A stretch of DNA of 64,000 bases from Candidatus Brocadia pituitae (GTDB lineage Bacteria > Planctomycetota > Brocadiia > Brocadiales > Brocadiaceae). The notes beneath the pieces were generated by a model, which saw only the letters and a list, made by a program, of their open reading frames with translations, was not told where the DNA came from and did no database searches. This document shows, one piece after another, positions 34,084 to 61,687 of the stretch. The first letter of the stretch is position 1. Every line of letters begins with the position of its first letter. The position numbers were made by a program, and so were the translations under genes. The stretch is from positions 2,302,613 through 2,366,612 of the forward strand of contig AP021856.1 of NCBI GenBank assembly GCA_017347445.1, given 5' to 3'.

Positions 34084-36066
34084 CTAATCTGCATTGGTTG
34101 CATACTTGAGGCCGAAGTTGGTATCGTCATAATAGCCGATATGCGCCTTGCCTAATGTGTCCACGGCGATGGAGGCATACTCGCCTACACTTCCACCACT
34201 GTCTATAGTTTTGGTTGCCCATAAACCGGAAGCATTGGTTGCATACTTGAGGTCAAAGTTAGTACTGTCATAATAGCTGATGTGTGTCTTGCCCGATGTG
34301 TCCACGGCGATGGAGGTGTATCCACCTACATTTCCACTGCTGTCTACAGTCTTGGTTGCCCACGAACCAGAGGTATTTGTGGCATACTTGAGATCGCCAT
34401 GAGTATAATCATAATAACTCATGTGCACCTTGCCTGATGTGTCTATTGCTATGGAGGTAAACTGCCCGACATCACCATCGCTATCAATAGTCTTGATTGT
34501 CCATGAGCCAGCAGCGTTCGTGGCATTGGTGGCATATTTAAGGACATTTTTTGTGTCGTCATAATAGCTTATATGCACCCTGCCGGACACATCGACTGTT
34601 ATAGCGGTATGCTCTCCTACATTTCCATTACTATCAATGGTCTTGGTTCTCCACGAACCTGAAGTATTCGTAGCGTACTTGAGGTCTTCGTTCGTGCAAT
34701 CATAATAGCTTATGTGTGTCTTACCAGACGCGTCCACTTTAATGGCGGTAAACTCTCCTACATTTCCATTGCTATCAACAATCTCGGTTATCCACGAACC
34801 AGAGGCATTGATGGCATATCTGAGATCACCATTTTTGCTATCATAATAGCTTATGTGTACTTTGTCTGATGTGTCCACGGCAATGGAGGTATACCCGCCT
34901 ACATTTCCGCTACTGTCTATAGTTTTGGTTACCCATGAACCGGAAGTATTGGTTGCATACTTGAGGGAGAAGTTAGTACTGTCATAATAGCTGATATGTA
35001 TCTTGCCTGCTGTGTCCACGGCAATGGATGCATACTCATATACATTTCCACCTCTGTCCACAGTTTCAGTTGTCCATAAACCAGGTGTATTGGTGGCATA
35101 CTTGATACTACCATTAATGCTGTCATAATAACTTATATACACATTGCCAGAGGTACCCACTGCTATGGAAGAATAACTACCAACATTTACATTCATAGCC
35201 ACAGGCTTTATTATCCATGTGCCAGTGGTATTGACAGCGTACCTGATGCTACCGTTAGTGATATCATAATAGCTGATGTGTGCCTTACCCGCTATGTCAA
35301 TTGTTATGGAGGAATATCCACCTATATTTCCGCTATTATCTACCGTAGTTGCTTTCCATACGCCAGAGGCATTGGTAGCGTATTTGAGGTTCTTGTTGGT
35401 AAGATCGTAATAGCTGATGTGAGTCTTGCCAGATACGTCGACTGTTATGGAGGTGTACTCACCCACCCATTCACTTTTGTCCACAGTTGCTGTTGACCAT
35501 GATCCAGAGGAATTCGTGGCATATTTGAGATTTTTTCTTGTGCGATCATAATAACTGATATGCACCTTACCCGATGTGTCTGCCGCTATGGAGGTATATG
35601 CCCCCACATCTCCGTTATTATCTACCGTAGTTGTTATCCATGCGCCAGAGGCATTTGTGGCATACTTGAGATCGCCGTTAATATCGTCATAATAACTGAG
35701 ATGTACCTTACTTGAGGTATCAAGCGCTATGGAAAGGTATCCACCTATTTTTCCACTGTTGTCCACAATAACGGTTATCCATGAGCCAGAGACATTAGTA
35801 GCATACTTGAGGTTTTTATTCATAAGATCGTAATAGCCGATGTGTGCCCTGCCCGATTTATCCATCGCTATTGAGGCACACCCGCCTACTCCCGGCAATG
35901 AATCCACTGTCATAATATGCCATTTACTACCGTCATGGTATGCATAGAAGAGACTGGTGCCGCCACAAACAATGTGAGGATGGCCATGAGCATCAAGAGC
36001 GAGTGCCCTTGAAGAAAAATTCTGGGAATATTTTTCTTTAACCACGGTCTCTGTCGTCCACGGTGC
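34084..36066 (-). repeat. 141-bp tandem repeat array, 14 units
   Basis: The DNA behind the repeat protein has a 141-bp period. Internal units share long identical stretches around the ATAGCTTAT/ATAATAGCTG segment that encodes SYYD, while the first and last units have drifted. This pattern fits expansion by unequal exchange in the centre of the array. Confidence 0.8.
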
Positions 36067-36156
36067 CGCTGATAATGCATTTACAACAAAAAGAAAATTG
36101 ATAAAAATTAGGGAAAAAGTTGATAAAGCCTTTTTGCTCAAAATCATTCCCGTCAT
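34084..36156 (-). CDS. secreted protein of fourteen 47-residue repeats (probable beta propeller)
   Basis: A 690-residue protein with a good ribosome binding site (AGGAGG) before the ATG and a signal peptide ending near LSA (residue 30). The rest is fourteen tandem units of 47 residues; the first is diverged. The consensus core is SIAVDTSGKVHISYYD followed by LKYATNASGSW. Unit 10-11 has a 3-residue insertion (ATNATNA). A repeat with an H-I-S-Y-Y-D strand resembles sialidase/BNR-type blades, and fourteen equals two seven-bladed propellers. Function is unknown; cell-surface or periplasmic binding is likely. Confidence 0.8.
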   Translation of the reverse strand: MTGMILSKKALSTFSLIFINFLFVVNALSAAPWTTETVVKEKYSQNFSSRALALDAHGHPHIVCGGTSLFYAYHDGSKWHIMTVDSLPGVGGCASIAMDKSGRAHIGYYDLMNKNLKYATNVSGSWITVIVDNSGKIGGYLSIALDTSSKVHLSYYDDINGDLKYATNASGAWITTTVDNNGDVGAYTSIAADTSGKVHISYYDRTRKNLKYATNSSGSWSTATVDKSEWVGEYTSITVDVSGKTHISYYDLTNKNLKYATNASGVWKATTVDNSGNIGGYSSITIDIAGKAHISYYDITNGSIRYAVNTTGTWIIKPVAMNVNVGSYSSIAVGTSGNVYISYYDSINGSIKYATNTPGLWTTETVDRGGNVYEYASIAVDTAGKIHISYYDSTNFSLKYATNTSGSWVTKTIDSSGNVGGYTSIAVDTSDKVHISYYDSKNGDLRYAINASGSWITEIVDSNGNVGEFTAIKVDASGKTHISYYDCTNEDLKYATNTSGSWRTKTIDSNGNVGEHTAITVDVSGRVHISYYDDTKNVLKYATNATNAAGSWTIKTIDSDGDVGQFTSIAIDTSGKVHMSYYDYTHGDLKYATNTSGSWATKTVDSSGNVGGYTSIAVDTSGKTHISYYDSTNFDLKYATNASGLWATKTIDSGGSVGEYASIAVDTLGKAHIGYYDDTNFGLKYATNAD

Positions 36157-55113: not shown

Positions 55114-55926
55114 TTAATCTTGTTTGTTTGTGTTTACGAGTTTTAGGCGCATCATCTCTGCAAAGAGCCCCACCTCATATTCAATACCTTTGAGAATGTC
55201 ATTTTCTCCGGCAAAATTTATACACTTCTTCATCTCCTTGAGCGCCCTTGCATCCCTTTCCAGGAGAATCTTTGCCATAGCAATTGCATGATCATAAACT
55301 TCCTTGTGAGGCACGATCTGGTTGACAAGGCCCCATTCCAAAGCAGTTTCAGCGCGAATCATCTTACCGAGGAACAACATCTCTTTTGCGCGGGCTGCGC
55401 CAATAAAACGCGGCAGGCGCTGCGTACCGCCAAGCCCGGGAATAATGCTCAGCTCAGGCTTTGCCTCCGGCAGGCTAAAAAATGAGGTTTCCGAAGCAAC
55501 CCGCAAATCACACAACATGGCAAGCTCCAGACCTGCCCCGATAGTGACACCGTTAATAGCAGCAATAACGGGTTTTTTGCAATTTTCAATTTCGACAAAC
55601 ATATCATGGGCGCGTTTGAATCGCTCGTAATTCTTTTCCGCAACGAGACCGGAAATCCACGAGCCAAAGAGTTCGTCGCGGTCGGCACCGTCGCTGAATA
55701 CCCCACGGAGTTTGCTGGCAATAATAATAGCTCCAATCGTATCATCTCCTTCATACTGGTCCATTTTGTCATAGATGGCGTCCAGCAACCACGAACCGAT
55801 AGAATTCCGGGGCGGTTTTTTCATGGAGATAATGCCGATAGCCTTACCATTCTCTCCGGAAATTTTTTCAAACTCAATGTGGTCATATCCAGCGTTATCA
55901 CCACGATTCATACGAATGTCTTTCAT
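55114..55926 (-). CDS. enoyl-CoA hydratase/isomerase (crotonase) family protein
   Basis: A 270-residue crotonase. Oxyanion-hole segments are [17 protein letters not shown] and [20 protein letters not shown]. The [13 protein letters not shown]-type segment ([16 protein letters not shown]) follows. The first acidic residue of the usual catalytic pair appears replaced by the Gly/Gly pair region, so hydratase activity is not assured. It is upstream of zwf on the same strand. The substrate is unknown; a link to the nearby ketosynthase cluster is possible. Confidence 0.85.
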
Positions 55927-56788: not shown

Positions 56789-56903
56789 GTAGGGTGGATT
56801 AAACGAAGTGATCCACCATCATTGCCCAGATAGAGAGGAGAAAAGGTATCGTTATAAAGGTGGATTCAGCGTGAAAAGACGCACGCCTTAACCCACGCTA
56901 CTT
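56789..56903. repeat. two copies of a GGTGGATT-type dispersed repeat
   Basis: Copy one (56789-56817) reads GTAGGGTGGATTAAACGAAG then TGATCCACC, an imperfect palindrome. Copy two (56861-56903) is inverted, with the AGTAGCGTGGGTTAAGGCG end on the minus strand. Copy two overlaps the 3' end of the downstream-most ketosynthase-like gene and supplies its stop codon. Confidence 0.6.
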
Positions 56904-58120
56904 ATTACCAAACATGAATTATTCCCATCGTAATCCATGGTGTTTATCAATGCATTTTTGATTTCTTTTCTAAAAGGTTTTTCAAGGATAAGATCCAGAT
57001 TAATCTCTGGATCTTTGTTGCAGTGATTCATGATGTGTGGTATTTGACCTGTGCTTATTGACATGATAGATGAAATGAGCTGGGCTGCGCCAGCGGTTCC
57101 GTACGATTCGCCGATGTTCGATTTTATTGCAGATACGGGAATACGATCGCTCCCTGCGCCGAATAACGATTGAATAGCCTTCGCCTCGACCGCATCCTGC
57201 ATCCTGCATCCATTTGCATTGGCGCTGATGAAGTCAACGTCTTCCCTTTTTATTCCGGCATCTTCCAGCGCATCATGCATGGCTTTTTCGGTACGACGCA
57301 CTCTTACCTCTGCCGGATGGTCTTTACCGCCCACGAAGGTATTGCCAAATCCCTTTACCTCTGTATAGATATGAGCACCCCTGTCCAGGGCATGCTGGAG
57401 TTCTTCCAGAATAACCACGTAACTGCCTTCTGCCATGACAAAACCGTTTCTCTCTTTATCGAGGGGCAGGCTCGCCTCTCTTGCGCCATCAAGACCGGAC
57501 AACAAACCACGCAGGTAGAATATCAGATACAAATCGATGGAAATCTGTTCGACACCACCCGCTACGATTACCTTTACCATATCGCGCTGTATCATCTTGA
57601 ACGCGTCGCCGATGGCATCGCTGCTTGATGTGAAACCTGCAGATATAGTACGGGCAAGGCCTTTTATTTTGAAAATGACGGATACATAGTTAATGGAAGA
57701 ATTTAAGGCAACATCATAGCTGAGCATGGGTGACAACTCGGAGGGATTATTCCTGATAATCTCATAGAAATAATCTGTTGTCTCTGAAAAGTTACCCAGG
57801 GATGAGCCAATGACAATGCCCATCTTTTCTGACAGAGTGCCATCTGTTGGAAGCCTTGCATCATCGATAGCCATCTTTGCTGCAGACCCCAAAAAACGCG
57901 TCCCTTTGTTTAAATACTTTAAGCCTTTGCTGCCAAGGTATATTTCTGGTTTAAGGTCTCTCACCTCCCCGCCGAGTTTGCATTTATAGGGTAAGAGGTC
58001 GAGAGAGGCCATAGGCGCTATGCCAGACTTCCCGGCAATAAGATTATCCCAAAAAATCTCTTTTCCGCATCCTAGAGGGGATACGACACCCAACCCGGTA
58101 ATAACGACTCGTTTTTTCAT
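56888..58120 (-). CDS. catalytically dead beta-ketoacyl synthase homologue (chain-length-factor-like)
   Basis: A 410-residue protein with the full thiolase fold of FabF (start VVITGLGVVSPLG, C-terminal GG-type loop region replaced by YDGNNSC). All three catalytic residues are changed: the nucleophile position is Phe163 (SAGFTSSSDAIGDAF), the first His is Asn303 (SANANGCRMQD), and the second His is Glu338 (KSNIGESYGTAGA). Lys333 remains. Its gene is 34 bp downstream of an intact ketosynthase, the layout of KS/chain-length-factor pairs. It probably forms a heterodimer that sets chain length or binds the substrate. The C-terminus (SSVG, stop) lies in a dispersed repeat. Confidence 0.85.
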   Translation of the reverse strand: MKKRVVITGLGVVSPLGCGKEIFWDNLIAGKSGIAPMASLDLLPYKCKLGGEVRDLKPEIYLGSKGLKYLNKGTRFLGSAAKMAIDDARLPTDGTLSEKMGIVIGSSLGNFSETTDYFYEIIRNNPSELSPMLSYDVALNSSINYVSVIFKIKGLARTISAGFTSSSDAIGDAFKMIQRDMVKVIVAGGVEQISIDLYLIFYLRGLLSGLDGAREASLPLDKERNGFVMAEGSYVVILEELQHALDRGAHIYTEVKGFGNTFVGGKDHPAEVRVRRTEKAMHDALEDAGIKREDVDFISANANGCRMQDAVEAKAIQSLFGAGSDRIPVSAIKSNIGESYGTAGAAQLISSIMSISTGQIPHIMNHCNKDPEINLDLILEKPFRKEIKNALINTMDYDGNNSCLVISSVG

Positions 58121-58140: not shown

Positions 58141-58169
58141 TGGATTCGCTTCGCTTAACCCATCCTACT
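58141..58169. repeat. dispersed repeat at the 3' end of the ketosynthase gene
   Basis: On the minus strand it reads AGTAGGATGGGTTAAGCGAA then GCGAATCCA, the same family as the copies at 56789-56903. It contains the last three codons (RMG) and the TAA stop of the upstream ketosynthase. Confidence 0.6.
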
Positions 58170-59366
58170 AAATATGGTAGTTGCATTGTTTCCGCCAAAG
58201 GCAAAGGAATTATTTAATACATGATCCACTTTTACCGTGCGCGCCGCGTTGGGTACGTAATCAAGATCGCATTCCGGATCGGGTGTTTCGTAATTAATCG
58301 TCGGAGGAATTACTCCATGCCTCAACACCAGACAGCAGACAACTGATTCCACAGCACTCGCTGCACCCATGAGGTGACCAATCATGGATTTCGTGGAACT
58401 ACAGGGAATCTTATATGCGCCTTCGCTAAATACGCGCTTTATAGCGGTAGTCTCCGTCTTGTCATTATGTGGTGTGCCCGTGCCATGAGCATTGATGTAT
58501 CCAATTTCTTGAGAAGAAAGACTTGACATCTTTAGCGCATCGCTCATGCACTTTACTGCCCCGTCACCTTCCGGATGGGGCGCCGTCATGTGAAATCCAT
58601 CGCAGCTCAATCCATAACCCGCCATCTCAGCAATAATCGTTGCCCCGCGTTTTTTGGCAAATTCGTATCGCTCCATAATGAGTATCCCCGCCCCTTCTCC
58701 AATCATAAGACCTTGACGGTTTTTATCGAATGGCTGGCAACGTTCAGGAGCTAAGGCCTTGAGATTATGAAAGTGGGTAAATTCTGTTTGAGGGATCATG
58801 TCACCACCACCGACCATTACCACATCCACCTTATTATCCACAAGGAGGTCGTACGCCCAGGCAATGGCGTGATTGCCTGATGAACAGGCGTTCAGCGAGA
58901 TCATGGCGGGACCTTCAAACTCGAAATTTTTAGAAAGAATATTGGTAATCGAATTGGGCGGGTAAACTGCAGCGACGATTTTATCGAAGCCATTGTCTTT
59001 TTTTGAGGTATCTAACCGCAAAAGCCTTTCAAACGGGGTTAATTCAGCTGCTAATGTCCCGATGGCAATGCCGAATCGTTCCCGGTTGAATTTTTTGTCA
59101 TGCAATAAACCACTTTCCTGGAGTGCCTCCCTGGCTGCGTAATAGACATATTTGTGAATCGTGTTTTCTTTTATCTGATTTTCCAGTGAAAAGTCCCATT
59201 GGAAATTCTTTATCTCACAGGAGCGATGAACTTTGTATTTTGAGGTATCGAAGGATTTCATCTCATTGGCCCCGTTCGTACCCCGGATGAAGGAATCCCA
59301 GCTTTGCCTGACGCCAATCCCAATGGGCGTAACTAACCCCAACCCAGTAATTACAACCTTTTCCAT
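58155..59366 (-). CDS. beta-ketoacyl-ACP synthase (FabF/KAS II-like), intact
   Basis: A 403-residue condensing enzyme. The catalytic triad is complete: Cys161 (LNACSSGNHAIAW), His294 (NAHGTGTPHND) and His331 (KSMIGHLMGAASA), with Lys326. It starts VVITGLGLVTPIGIG and ends FGGNNATTIF, the usual C-terminal glycine loop. It elongates an acyl chain on ACP. Next to a radical SAM enzyme and AcpS it looks like part of a specialised lipid or polyketide pathway, probably ladderane-related, and not housekeeping fatty acid synthesis. Confidence 0.93.
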   Translation of the reverse strand: MEKVVITGLGLVTPIGIGVRQSWDSFIRGTNGANEMKSFDTSKYKVHRSCEIKNFQWDFSLENQIKENTIHKYVYYAAREALQESGLLHDKKFNRERFGIAIGTLAAELTPFERLLRLDTSKKDNGFDKIVAAVYPPNSITNILSKNFEFEGPAMISLNACSSGNHAIAWAYDLLVDNKVDVVMVGGGDMIPQTEFTHFHNLKALAPERCQPFDKNRQGLMIGEGAGILIMERYEFAKKRGATIIAEMAGYGLSCDGFHMTAPHPEGDGAVKCMSDALKMSSLSSQEIGYINAHGTGTPHNDKTETTAIKRVFSEGAYKIPCSSTKSMIGHLMGAASAVESVVCCLVLRHGVIPPTINYETPDPECDLDYVPNAARTVKVDHVLNNSFAFGGNNATTIFSRMG

Positions 59367-59530: not shown

Positions 59531-61012
59531 TTATGATGACACCTCAATCGGCGTCAATTCCACCTTTTTCCCTGTTTTTTTCGATTGATTGTAGCGTTTT
59601 AATGCCTCATCATAAAACCCTGATGTCTGCAATTCTTTGAGATTTTGAATCAGGTGCTGATAAACGGACTGCCAATCCAGATTGACTCTGAAGGCAAACA
59701 TGGCGGCATTCATATTATCTTTCAGCACCTCTTTCGCATTCTGGAATCTCTGCCGCAGTACCTCGGTGGCATAAATCCTGTCGTAGAGATATTGAAATCC
59801 ATCAATAAGTTCCTGAAGGGACATGTTTTTCAGGACATAGGTAAGATGATGAGATGTGTAATACTTCCAATCCTCCGGAAAGTTTGTTCTGAAAAGCCTT
59901 TCATCACCGTTTAACCGGTGATACAGCGGCGTATTAATGAACGGGCACAAAATGCCACAGGTCATGATGTCGACGTGGGAATCCAGGACAAAATCGGCAA
60001 CCTGTTTAAAGGTATCAGGGGTATCGGCATCATTGCCAAAGACCATGGTCCCCCACACGGCAAGGCCGTGTTTGCGAATATTGGCTATCGCCTCAAAATA
60101 ATTTTCGATGGAGATGCGCAAATTCACGTTCTTGTTCATCGTCTTCAATGCTTCTTCATTGATTGATTCAATCCCAATAAGCACACCGACGCACCCACTC
60201 TTTCTCATGTATTCTAGGGTTTCATCATCTTTATAGATATTGAGCGAGGTAAACCCGAACCAGTTCTGGTAAATACCCCTTTCCACCATACCCTTAAAAA
60301 GGTCGCGGACGCGTTCATTAGACTTTTTGCTGTGGCCGTAAAAATTTTCATCCGTCAGGATCAGTCCGCGATATTGACCCTTAATAGATTCGAATTCATC
60401 AAGCACGTCTTCAATGGGTCTTTCCCGGTATTTTCTCCCCTGGAACTGAGGCACAGAACAAAACTCACAGCTAAAGGGACAACCGGCGGTAGTAATGATC
60501 CCTGAATACCGGTATTTGTATTTGTCCTTCAAATATTTTCTATCGGACCGTAATCCATGATACAATTCCATAGGGGTAAGACTACCCTCGTATCTTTTTT
60601 GGAGACCGCCCTTTTCAAAATCACTAACAATCTTTTCCCAGAGAGTTATGGCCTCCCTGGTTACAACGCAGTCCACATACTTTGCAGCCTCTTCCGGATA
60701 GCTGGTCGCATGAATACCACCCATGATTACTGGTATCCCCCGCTTTCGGCAGGCAGCAGCTATTTGATAAGCGCGATGGGCCTGATAACTCACCGACGTA
60801 ATGCCAACCAGGTCAGCACCGCCAAAGGTAATATCTCCCGTCTTTTCGTCAATCGCAAGCTCCTGGGTTTCATCAATAATATCAACCTGCCAGTGTTTGG
60901 GCGTTAATACCTTTAGATAACCAAGGTTCACGGGCATTTGATTTAATACCGAGACATTTTCCTCTCCCACATTTCCAATCGGATGAGGGTTAATAAGCAC
61001 AAGTTTTTTCAT
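59531..61012 (-). CDS. B12-binding radical SAM enzyme
   Basis: About 493 residues from ATG 61012 (MKKLVLINPHPIGN); the open frame runs upstream of it. Residues 1-140 form a cobalamin-binding Rossmann domain (VGITSVSYQAHRA, IPVIMGGIHATSYPEE). The 4Fe-4S motif is CPFSCEFC (about residues 178-185). The TIM-barrel body and a long C-terminal helical region follow. Class B radical SAM enzymes methylate or cyclise unreactive carbon. The start overlaps the acpS stop by 4 bp (ATGA). In a lipid gene run this is a candidate for ring-forming or chain-modifying steps of ladderane synthesis; that is inference. Confidence 0.9.
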   Translation of the reverse strand: MKKLVLINPHPIGNVGEENVSVLNQMPVNLGYLKVLTPKHWQVDIIDETQELAIDEKTGDITFGGADLVGITSVSYQAHRAYQIAAACRKRGIPVIMGGIHATSYPEEAAKYVDCVVTREAITLWEKIVSDFEKGGLQKRYEGSLTPMELYHGLRSDRKYLKDKYKYRYSGIITTAGCPFSCEFCSVPQFQGRKYRERPIEDVLDEFESIKGQYRGLILTDENFYGHSKKSNERVRDLFKGMVERGIYQNWFGFTSLNIYKDDETLEYMRKSGCVGVLIGIESINEEALKTMNKNVNLRISIENYFEAIANIRKHGLAVWGTMVFGNDADTPDTFKQVADFVLDSHVDIMTCGILCPFINTPLYHRLNGDERLFRTNFPEDWKYYTSHHLTYVLKNMSLQELIDGFQYLYDRIYATEVLRQRFQNAKEVLKDNMNAAMFAFRVNLDWQSVYQHLIQNLKELQTSGFYDEALKRYNQSKKTGKKVELTPIEVSS

Positions 61013-61395
61013 GAACATTCCTCTTTTTTTGGCACCAACAAAACCTGGGCAATGGCATAGTCCTGACAATGGGATAATGATACAGAAATATTGCTTATCT
61101 GTTTTTCATCCGCCAACTCTTTTACCCTGCCGTAAAGATTCACATAGGGTCTCCCTTTTTCGTCATTCAGGAGCTCAATATCCGTCCATTTCATCTTACC
61201 GGCCCAGCCTGTTCCCAGCGCCTTGAACATCGCCTCTTTTGAGGCAAAACGGGCTGCAAAATGCTGATATTTATTCTTCCTTTGCCTGCAATACTCTACC
61301 TCTTTTTCCGTATAAATCCTTCTGAGAAAATTCTCATTGGCAGAAAACAACCTTTCGATACGTTTTATTTCGATAATATCAATACCAACATACAT
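61009..61395 (-). CDS. acpS: holo-[acyl-carrier-protein] synthase
   Basis: From ATG 61395 (MYVGIDIIEIKRIERL) it is 128 residues; the frame is open 15 codons further. The magnesium and CoA site residues are in GIDIIEI and the second signature FAARFASKEAMFKALG. It transfers 4-phosphopantetheine from CoA to a serine of an acyl carrier protein. It is coupled by 4-bp overlap to the radical SAM gene. No ACP gene is in the window. Its place at the head of the lipid run suggests it primes a dedicated ACP. Confidence 0.94.
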   Translation of the reverse strand: MYVGIDIIEIKRIERLFSANENFLRRIYTEKEVEYCRQRKNKYQHFAARFASKEAMFKALGTGWAGKMKWTDIELLNDEKGRPYVNLYGRVKELADEKQISNISVSLSHCQDYAIAQVLLVPKKEECS

Positions 61396-61687
61396 AGGTG
61401 AATTACTGGCAATTTCGATCAGTGTAACTGCTTGTAGCATAAGTATCTATTCAGGAAATGGCATTCTACAGCGTTGCAAAAATAATGTCAACGACAATTT
61501 ATCACCCTACCACTGCCATACAACGGGCGAGAGGAGAAGGCTTACCGCCTGTTTAGATGTGTATACAAATCCTGGATTGTTTTGAGTTCTCCATAATCGC
61601 AGGGAGAGAACTTGATGAGGTTGCAAGAGAAGGCTGAAGAATTTCGGCAACAAGCTTTGTACGATACCGTAAAAAGCCAATGCGAAA

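Follow-up and report, generated by a model that had tools for sequence, protein, structure and literature searches.

Two adjacent genes of a complete 4.08 Mb Brocadiales genome very probably encode the two subunits of an anammox-specific condensing enzyme: KS1, an intact ketosynthase, and CLF1, a catalytically dead protein of the same fold that would serve as a non-catalytic, chain-length-factor-like subunit in a 1:1 heterodimer with KS1. The likeness to ketosynthase/chain-length-factor (KS/CLF) pairs, proposed in the initial annotation of this DNA, is well supported by the adjacency of the genes, by the duplication of both together, by the conservation profile of CLF1 and by the occurrence of the paralogous chains together in entries of the Protein Data Bank (PDB). 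The pathway that KS1/CLF1 most likely serves, though unproven, is the assembly of the fatty acids of ladderanes, the unusual ladder-shaped lipids of anammox membranes.

Organization of the locus

The window, the whole stretch of 64,000 nucleotides that was analysed, carries four genes on its minus strand that are transcribed in the order acpS, B12-radical-SAM, KS1 and CLF1. The holo-ACP synthase gene acpS (61009–61440, Kuste2802 type) is followed by the gene of a B12-binding radical SAM protein (59531–61018, Kuste2803 type), the open reading frame of which extends up to 61069; an ATG where acpS ends, at either 61018 or 61012, is its likely start. KS1 (58155–59366, 403 amino acids, Kuste2804 orthologue) is separated by 34 bp from CLF1 (56888–58120, 410 amino acids, Kuste2805 orthologue). 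Gene order, annotation and active-site residues given in two earlier studies (PMC2649909 and PMC4790861) indicate that the four genes are orthologues of Kuenenia kuste2802–2805. A possible sigma-70 promoter, TTGACA-17-TAGAAT, is located upstream of acpS (61463–61491, minus strand), such sites being no commoner in the region than expected by chance. The cluster, referred to here as operon 1, contains acpS, and no ACP gene was seen in it.

Elsewhere in the window, positions 34084–36156 encode a long protein with repeated units HISYYDxTNxDLKYATNxSGSW, related to a second long protein with such repeats at L069:13064–14956. A Pfam search with the window protein, the one of the two that was checked, gave no convincing family.

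Active sites of KS1 and CLF1

Both proteins are full-length members of the ketosynthase fold, matching the Pfam ketoacyl-synt family with E values of 4e-29 (CLF1) and 2e-33 (KS1), and the whole length of CLF1 can be aligned with KS1 and with FabF. The catalytic set of KS1 comprises Cys161 (the nucleophile, encoded at 58884–58886 on the minus strand), His294, Lys326 and His331, in agreement with the initial annotation, which had called this neighbour intact on the strength of the Cys and the two His residues. In CLF1, the alignments place Phe163 (codon TTC, 57632–57634) at the position of the catalytic Cys, Asn301 (57218–57220) at that of the first catalytic His and Glu338 (57107–57109) at that of the second, and the catalytic-site Lys is kept as Lys333 (57122–57124, all on the minus strand). 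Phe163, Glu338 and Lys333 are the residues that had been named from the sequence, and the accompanying claim of a preserved fold is borne out by the Pfam match and by the complete ketosynthase fold of the structure model. The first His had been assigned to Asn303, which must be corrected to Asn301; the counterpart of Asn303 in the alignment is the Thr of the His-Gly-Thr motif. The annotation had also named another Cys at the active site of CLF1 as a finding that would speak against it, and no Cys aligned with the active site was found.

CLF1 thus combines a ketosynthase fold with the loss of the catalytic Cys and His residues, as chain-length factors do, and lacks the Cys-His-His triad of FabF and FabB. 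Further ketosynthase hallmarks are gone as well: FabF Glu349 is replaced by Gln347, and the GFGG gating loop reads D-Y-D-G. Against the NCBIfam fabF model, CLF1 scores 315 bits, the cut-off being 494. A further divergent ketosynthase of this genome, at G000:C1:1113743–1114966 (also L071:6738–7979), has C/H/K/Q at the catalytic positions, with the Cys and the first His kept and Gln in place of the second His.

Conservation and distribution

Orthologues of CLF1 (49–92% identity) are present in 56 of 62 Brocadiales genomes, covering all five families; the six genomes without one are fragmented metagenome-assembled genomes. Phe163, Lys333 and Glu338 are invariant across every orthologue compared, and Asn301 is invariant save in one genome, which has Gly there, so that the residue pattern of CLF1 is not due to chance. 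Among close relatives, dN/dS is 0.06–0.09 for CLF1 and 0.03–0.05 for KS1. The loss of all three catalytic residues might by itself suggest a functionless, decaying duplicate of KS1, a reading made exceedingly improbable by these dN/dS values and the invariant replacements, which rule out pseudogene decay, and further by the presence of the gene in 56 of 62 genomes and its placement in an ancient separate clade.

In each of the 49 stretches of sufficient length, KS1 directly precedes CLF1 on the same strand or lies farther upstream of it, and the two genes, which often overlap or abut, are less than 1 kb apart in 48 of them (five families). The adjacency and shared direction that mark the genes of KS/CLF heterodimers are therefore found in 48 of 49 stretches, and throughout the anammox order the genes keep the arrangement acpS, B12-radical-SAM, KS, dead KS. 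Membership of one operon could also, by itself, be what keeps CLF1 with KS1. In the sole case with a spacing above 1 kb, L081:2030–5829 (Brocadiaceae), a cassette of a NotI-type restriction endonuclease, a D12 DNA methylase and AIPR is inserted between KS1 and CLF1, both of which are intact despite the insertion.

A scan for CLF1 across 84,980 bacterial and archaeal species yielded 46 loci, all of them in Brocadiales. The named genera are Brocadia, Jettenia, Kuenenia, Loosdrechtia, Scalindua and Anammoxibacter, and the unnamed remainder match Brocadiales genomes of the 62-genome survey. No orthologue was found in the 13 other genomes of the class. Candidate relatives elsewhere in the phylum proved to be ordinary FabF proteins, 32–35% identical at best, and a viral origin was discarded on finding viral contigs devoid of any relative. 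Hydrazine synthase alpha was found in 40 of the 62 genomes, which represent four of the five families; fragmented assemblies are frequent among the remainder. The genome scans, together with PMC9387917, support the restriction of KS1/CLF1 to the anammox order; ladderanes have been measured in only part of these lineages.

Conservation profile and structure model of CLF1

In known chain-length factors, the segment around the position of FabF Phe133 lines the acyl tunnel of the partner subunit. The most constrained segment of CLF1, residues 105–160 (57641–57808, minus strand), is homologous to the FabF dimer-contact stretch that enters the partner's pocket, with Leu133 at the position of FabF Phe133. 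For this segment (residues 101–160 in KS1 numbering), column entropy relative to that of the protein as a whole (average 1.0) is 0.55 in CLF1, 0.41 in the paralogous CLF2 described below and 0.68 in five Streptomyces CLFs, as against 1.21, 1.10 and 1.15 in the respective partners KS1, KS2 and Streptomyces KS, and 1.03 in FabF. The pocket-forming dimer segment of the dead subunit is thus under tighter constraint than that of its KS partner. The relation is reversed in the catalytic loops, where the relative entropy is 0.23–0.28 in KS1 and 0.87–0.93 in CLF1. The contrast in conservation between the C-terminal and N-terminal halves is only moderately extreme, a difference as large being reached in 18 of 400 circular shifts. 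The conservation profile of CLF1 is therefore like that of the Streptomyces chain-length factors, with the pocket segment constrained and the catalytic loops relaxed.

Across CLF1 orthologues the position of FabF Phe133 is occupied by Leu, Ala, Gln or Cys, the kind of variability that a pocket-tuning residue would display. The FabF Ile108 gate is Ala or Gly in KS1 and KS2, a replacement that should admit bulkier chains. The AlphaFold2 model of CLF1 (pTM 0.87) comprises a complete ketosynthase fold with both halves and matches FabF structures and the actinorhodin KS with Z scores of approximately 50. Its lowest-confidence stretch, residues 109–133 of the modelled monomer, overlaps the conserved dimer segment, as might be expected if the partner were needed for ordering.

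The paralogous pair KS2/CLF2

A second operon, ACP-FabZ-KS2-CLF2-CrtI-like-radical SAM, was found at every sampled second locus across the order and was complete wherever the contig permitted. The KS2/CLF2 pair (kuste3605/kuste3606 type) resembles KS1/CLF1 in being order-wide, in setting a ketosynthase beside a dead one, in having a B12-radical-SAM gene in its operon and in consisting of the sister proteins of KS1 and CLF1. Its operon differs from operon 1 in possessing its own ACP, FabZ and CrtI-like desaturase and in lacking acpS. The dead sites differ too, with Phe/Asn/Glu in CLF1 as against Val, Glu or Thr/Asn or Cys/Glu or Asp in CLF2. In two genomes of one family (f3; L066 and L067), the KS1/CLF1 and KS2/CLF2 operons lie only a few kb apart, which links both pairs.

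The phylogenetic check with FabF homologues suggested in the initial annotation was carried out by maximum likelihood, and in the resulting tree the anammox CLFs (CLF1 and CLF2) form one clade and the anammox KSs (KS1 and KS2) another, each with support of 100/100. Every protein of one pair has its counterpart in the other pair as its sister (100/100), which implies that the pair was duplicated together; on the simplest reading of the tree, this duplication of the KS/CLF pair as a unit would have preceded the last common ancestor of the order. KS1 is nearer FabF than Streptomyces KS. Descent of CLF1 from actinobacterial CLFs was considered; the AU test (p = 0.479) speaks neither for nor against a single clade of CLF1 and the Streptomyces CLFs.

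PDB entries 9s5h and 9s5i each contain both KS2-type and CLF2-type chains, with eight chains of each type over the two entries, and 9s5i also contains an ACP chain. Judged from sequences and molecule names, this co-occurrence in equal numbers points to a KS2/CLF2 heterodimer in both entries. The chains are close to the paralogues of the Kuenenia-type genome G031 and are not identical to them, so that their source is another anammox species. Entry 9s5h was not among the Foldseek and VIA matches listed and may be newer than the material searched, which extends to 8 April 2026. In the literature up to the same date, covering few subscription journals and no preprints, we found no paper on 9s5h or 9s5i and none that treats kuste2804/2805 as a KS/CLF pair.

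The replaced residues themselves were tabulated by Rattray in 2009, as Phe163, Asn298 and Glu333 of Kuste2805 in that paper's FabB/F numbering (PMC2649909, Table 2) and as Val, Asn and Glu in the paralogue Kuste3606. They were taken to indicate a different substrate and function, or the recruitment of ladderane moieties, and CLF pairing and heterodimers are unmentioned there (PMC2649909). The residue pattern of CLF1 has thus been known since 2009, and the interpretation as a partner subunit is not in the 2009 paper. A different function would suit a stand-alone homodimeric enzyme in which Asn301, Lys333 and Glu338, as invariant as a catalytic site, perform non-condensing chemistry such as acyl transfer, hydration or decarboxylation. 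Against such an enzyme, CLF1 has no nucleophile, and its catalytic loops are relaxed where those of KS1 are constrained; moreover, the residues of CLF2 differ, leaving only the Lys common to all, and CLF2 occurs in the PDB entries together with its KS. A stand-alone enzyme is therefore improbable, and the preferred assignment for CLF1 is that of a non-catalytic partner of KS1.

A FadH-like reductase gene

In 31 of 52 stretches, from all five families, a FadH/old-yellow-enzyme-type gene of approximately 675 codons follows CLF1 within less than 1 kb, often overlapping (L075:5365–7434 and 30 other loci). The protein scores 371 bits against Escherichia coli 2,4-dienoyl-CoA reductase over the full length and 372 bits against the NCR reductase 6qkg. 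Clear orthologues exist throughout the order, and with an equal threshold none was found in other members of the class. The gene is unlinked to CLF1 in the genome studied here, where it occupies positions 907955–909976 of the chromosome, and likewise in the Kuenenia-type genome G031, which may explain its absence from the 2009 list. What is new here is the placement of this FadH-like dienoyl-CoA reductase gene in the operon as an ancestral component. The presence of such a reductase next to a KS/CLF pair suggests that the intermediates contain conjugated double bonds.

A gene of the enoyl-CoA hydratase/isomerase family (55114–55926, minus strand), the membership of which in the unit is uncertain, lies 3′ of CLF1 in Scalinduaceae and part of the Brocadiaceae, where it comes after the FadH-like gene. 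In the present genome, the FadH-like gene is absent between CLF1 and this gene.

Proposed function and relation to ladderanes

From what is known of the family, Cys161, His294 and His331 of KS1 would catalyse Claisen condensation on ACP-bound chains. CLF1, which has no nucleophile and in which Phe163 would fill the dead site, would line the acyl tunnel of KS1 with its segment 105–160 and so set which chains fit. The product would be an ACP-bound unsaturated chain, on which the FadH-like and radical SAM enzymes would act. Together with acpS, the B12-radical-SAM protein and, ancestrally, the FadH-like reductase, KS1/CLF1 would act in an anammox-only lipid pathway.

A role of KS1/CLF1 in making ladderanes is plausible and unproven, with roughly even chances, and is consistent with the strict restriction of the pair to anammox bacteria. 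With a probability somewhat below even, the heterodimer is real and makes another anammox lipid, such as a polyunsaturated, branched or hydrocarbon chain, so that the two possibilities differ in the product only. No enzyme of the operon has been tied to ladderanes by experiment, and syntenic FASII clusters are also present in Desulfotalea, which produces polyunsaturated hydrocarbons and no ladderanes (PMC2649909); against a non-ladderane product, the pair is confined to the anammox order Brocadiales, and ladderanes, too, are reportedly exclusive to anammox bacteria. In a more far-reaching scheme, which we regard as tentative, KS1/CLF1 and KS2/CLF2 would be two anammox-only heterodimers, similar to those of type II polyketide synthases (PKSs), that assemble an ACP-bound conjugated polyene, to be reduced and cyclised to ladderanes by the FadH-like and B12-radical-SAM enzymes; the Phe/Asn/Glu subunit would shape a tunnel able to take a bulky chain or one of unusual length. 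The ladderane-named radical SAM model of NCBIfam, TIGR04072, is matched above its cut-off in 7 of 62 anammox genomes, lower-scoring relatives being commoner, and was therefore rejected as an anammox-wide marker.

E. coli expressing kuste3603–3608 formed no new lipid (PMC4790861). In the same 2016 study, kuste2804 and kuste2805 were placed in separate synthetic operons, with one operon per strain, and their proteins were found in the insoluble fraction or pellets only (PMC4790861). KS1 and CLF1 were thus kept apart in that study, and its negative outcome is no argument against the pair. Separate expression may, by analogy with AmcG, which is similarly insoluble alone (PMC10698177), be the reason for the earlier failure. 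Ladderane biosynthesis in anammox bacteria is a long-open question, for which KS1/CLF1 is a strong and testable candidate; two anammox-core condensing pairs are shared by the order as a whole, and the dienoyl-CoA reductase gene joins this set.

Comparison with known condensing enzymes

CLF1 shares the fold of FabF and FabB, with approximately 30–35% identity, and differs from them in lacking Cys/His/His and the GFGG gating loop. In the aryl polyene system, ApeO and ApeC likewise combine a ketosynthase with a dead partner, and work with FAS-like KR and DH to give polyenes (PMC8358021); ApeC corresponds to the first thiolase half only (PMC8358021), whereas CLF1, with 410 residues, is full length. 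AmcF and AmcG, the ketosynthase and cyclization factor of cispentacin biosynthesis, also pair a ketosynthase with a non-catalytic subunit, and co-expression with AmcF renders AmcG soluble (PMC10698177). AmcG lacks known functional motifs and also some of the secondary structures of CLFs, whereas CLF1 has the full ketosynthase fold.

The KS/CLF pairs of type II PKSs (actinorhodin, 1tqy; AntDE, 6smo and 6smp; ishigamide, 6kxd) resemble KS1/CLF1 in the tandem arrangement of a ketosynthase and a full-length dead partner, in the retention of the Lys, in the constrained dimer segment and in the loss of the gating Phe. The minimal PKS includes a cognate ACP gene, which was not seen in operon 1. At the Cys/His/Lys/His positions, Streptomyces CLFs carry Gln, Glu or Gly/Asp/Lys/Arg, whereas CLF1 carries Phe/Asn/Lys/Glu; Gln in place of Cys, the typical CLF trait, is found in three of five Streptomyces CLFs, and all CLF1 orthologues have Phe. 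The Phe/Asn/Glu signature, singled out as unusual from the sequence, is thus confirmed as distinct, and the dead site of CLF1 is built differently from that of the Streptomyces chain-length factors.
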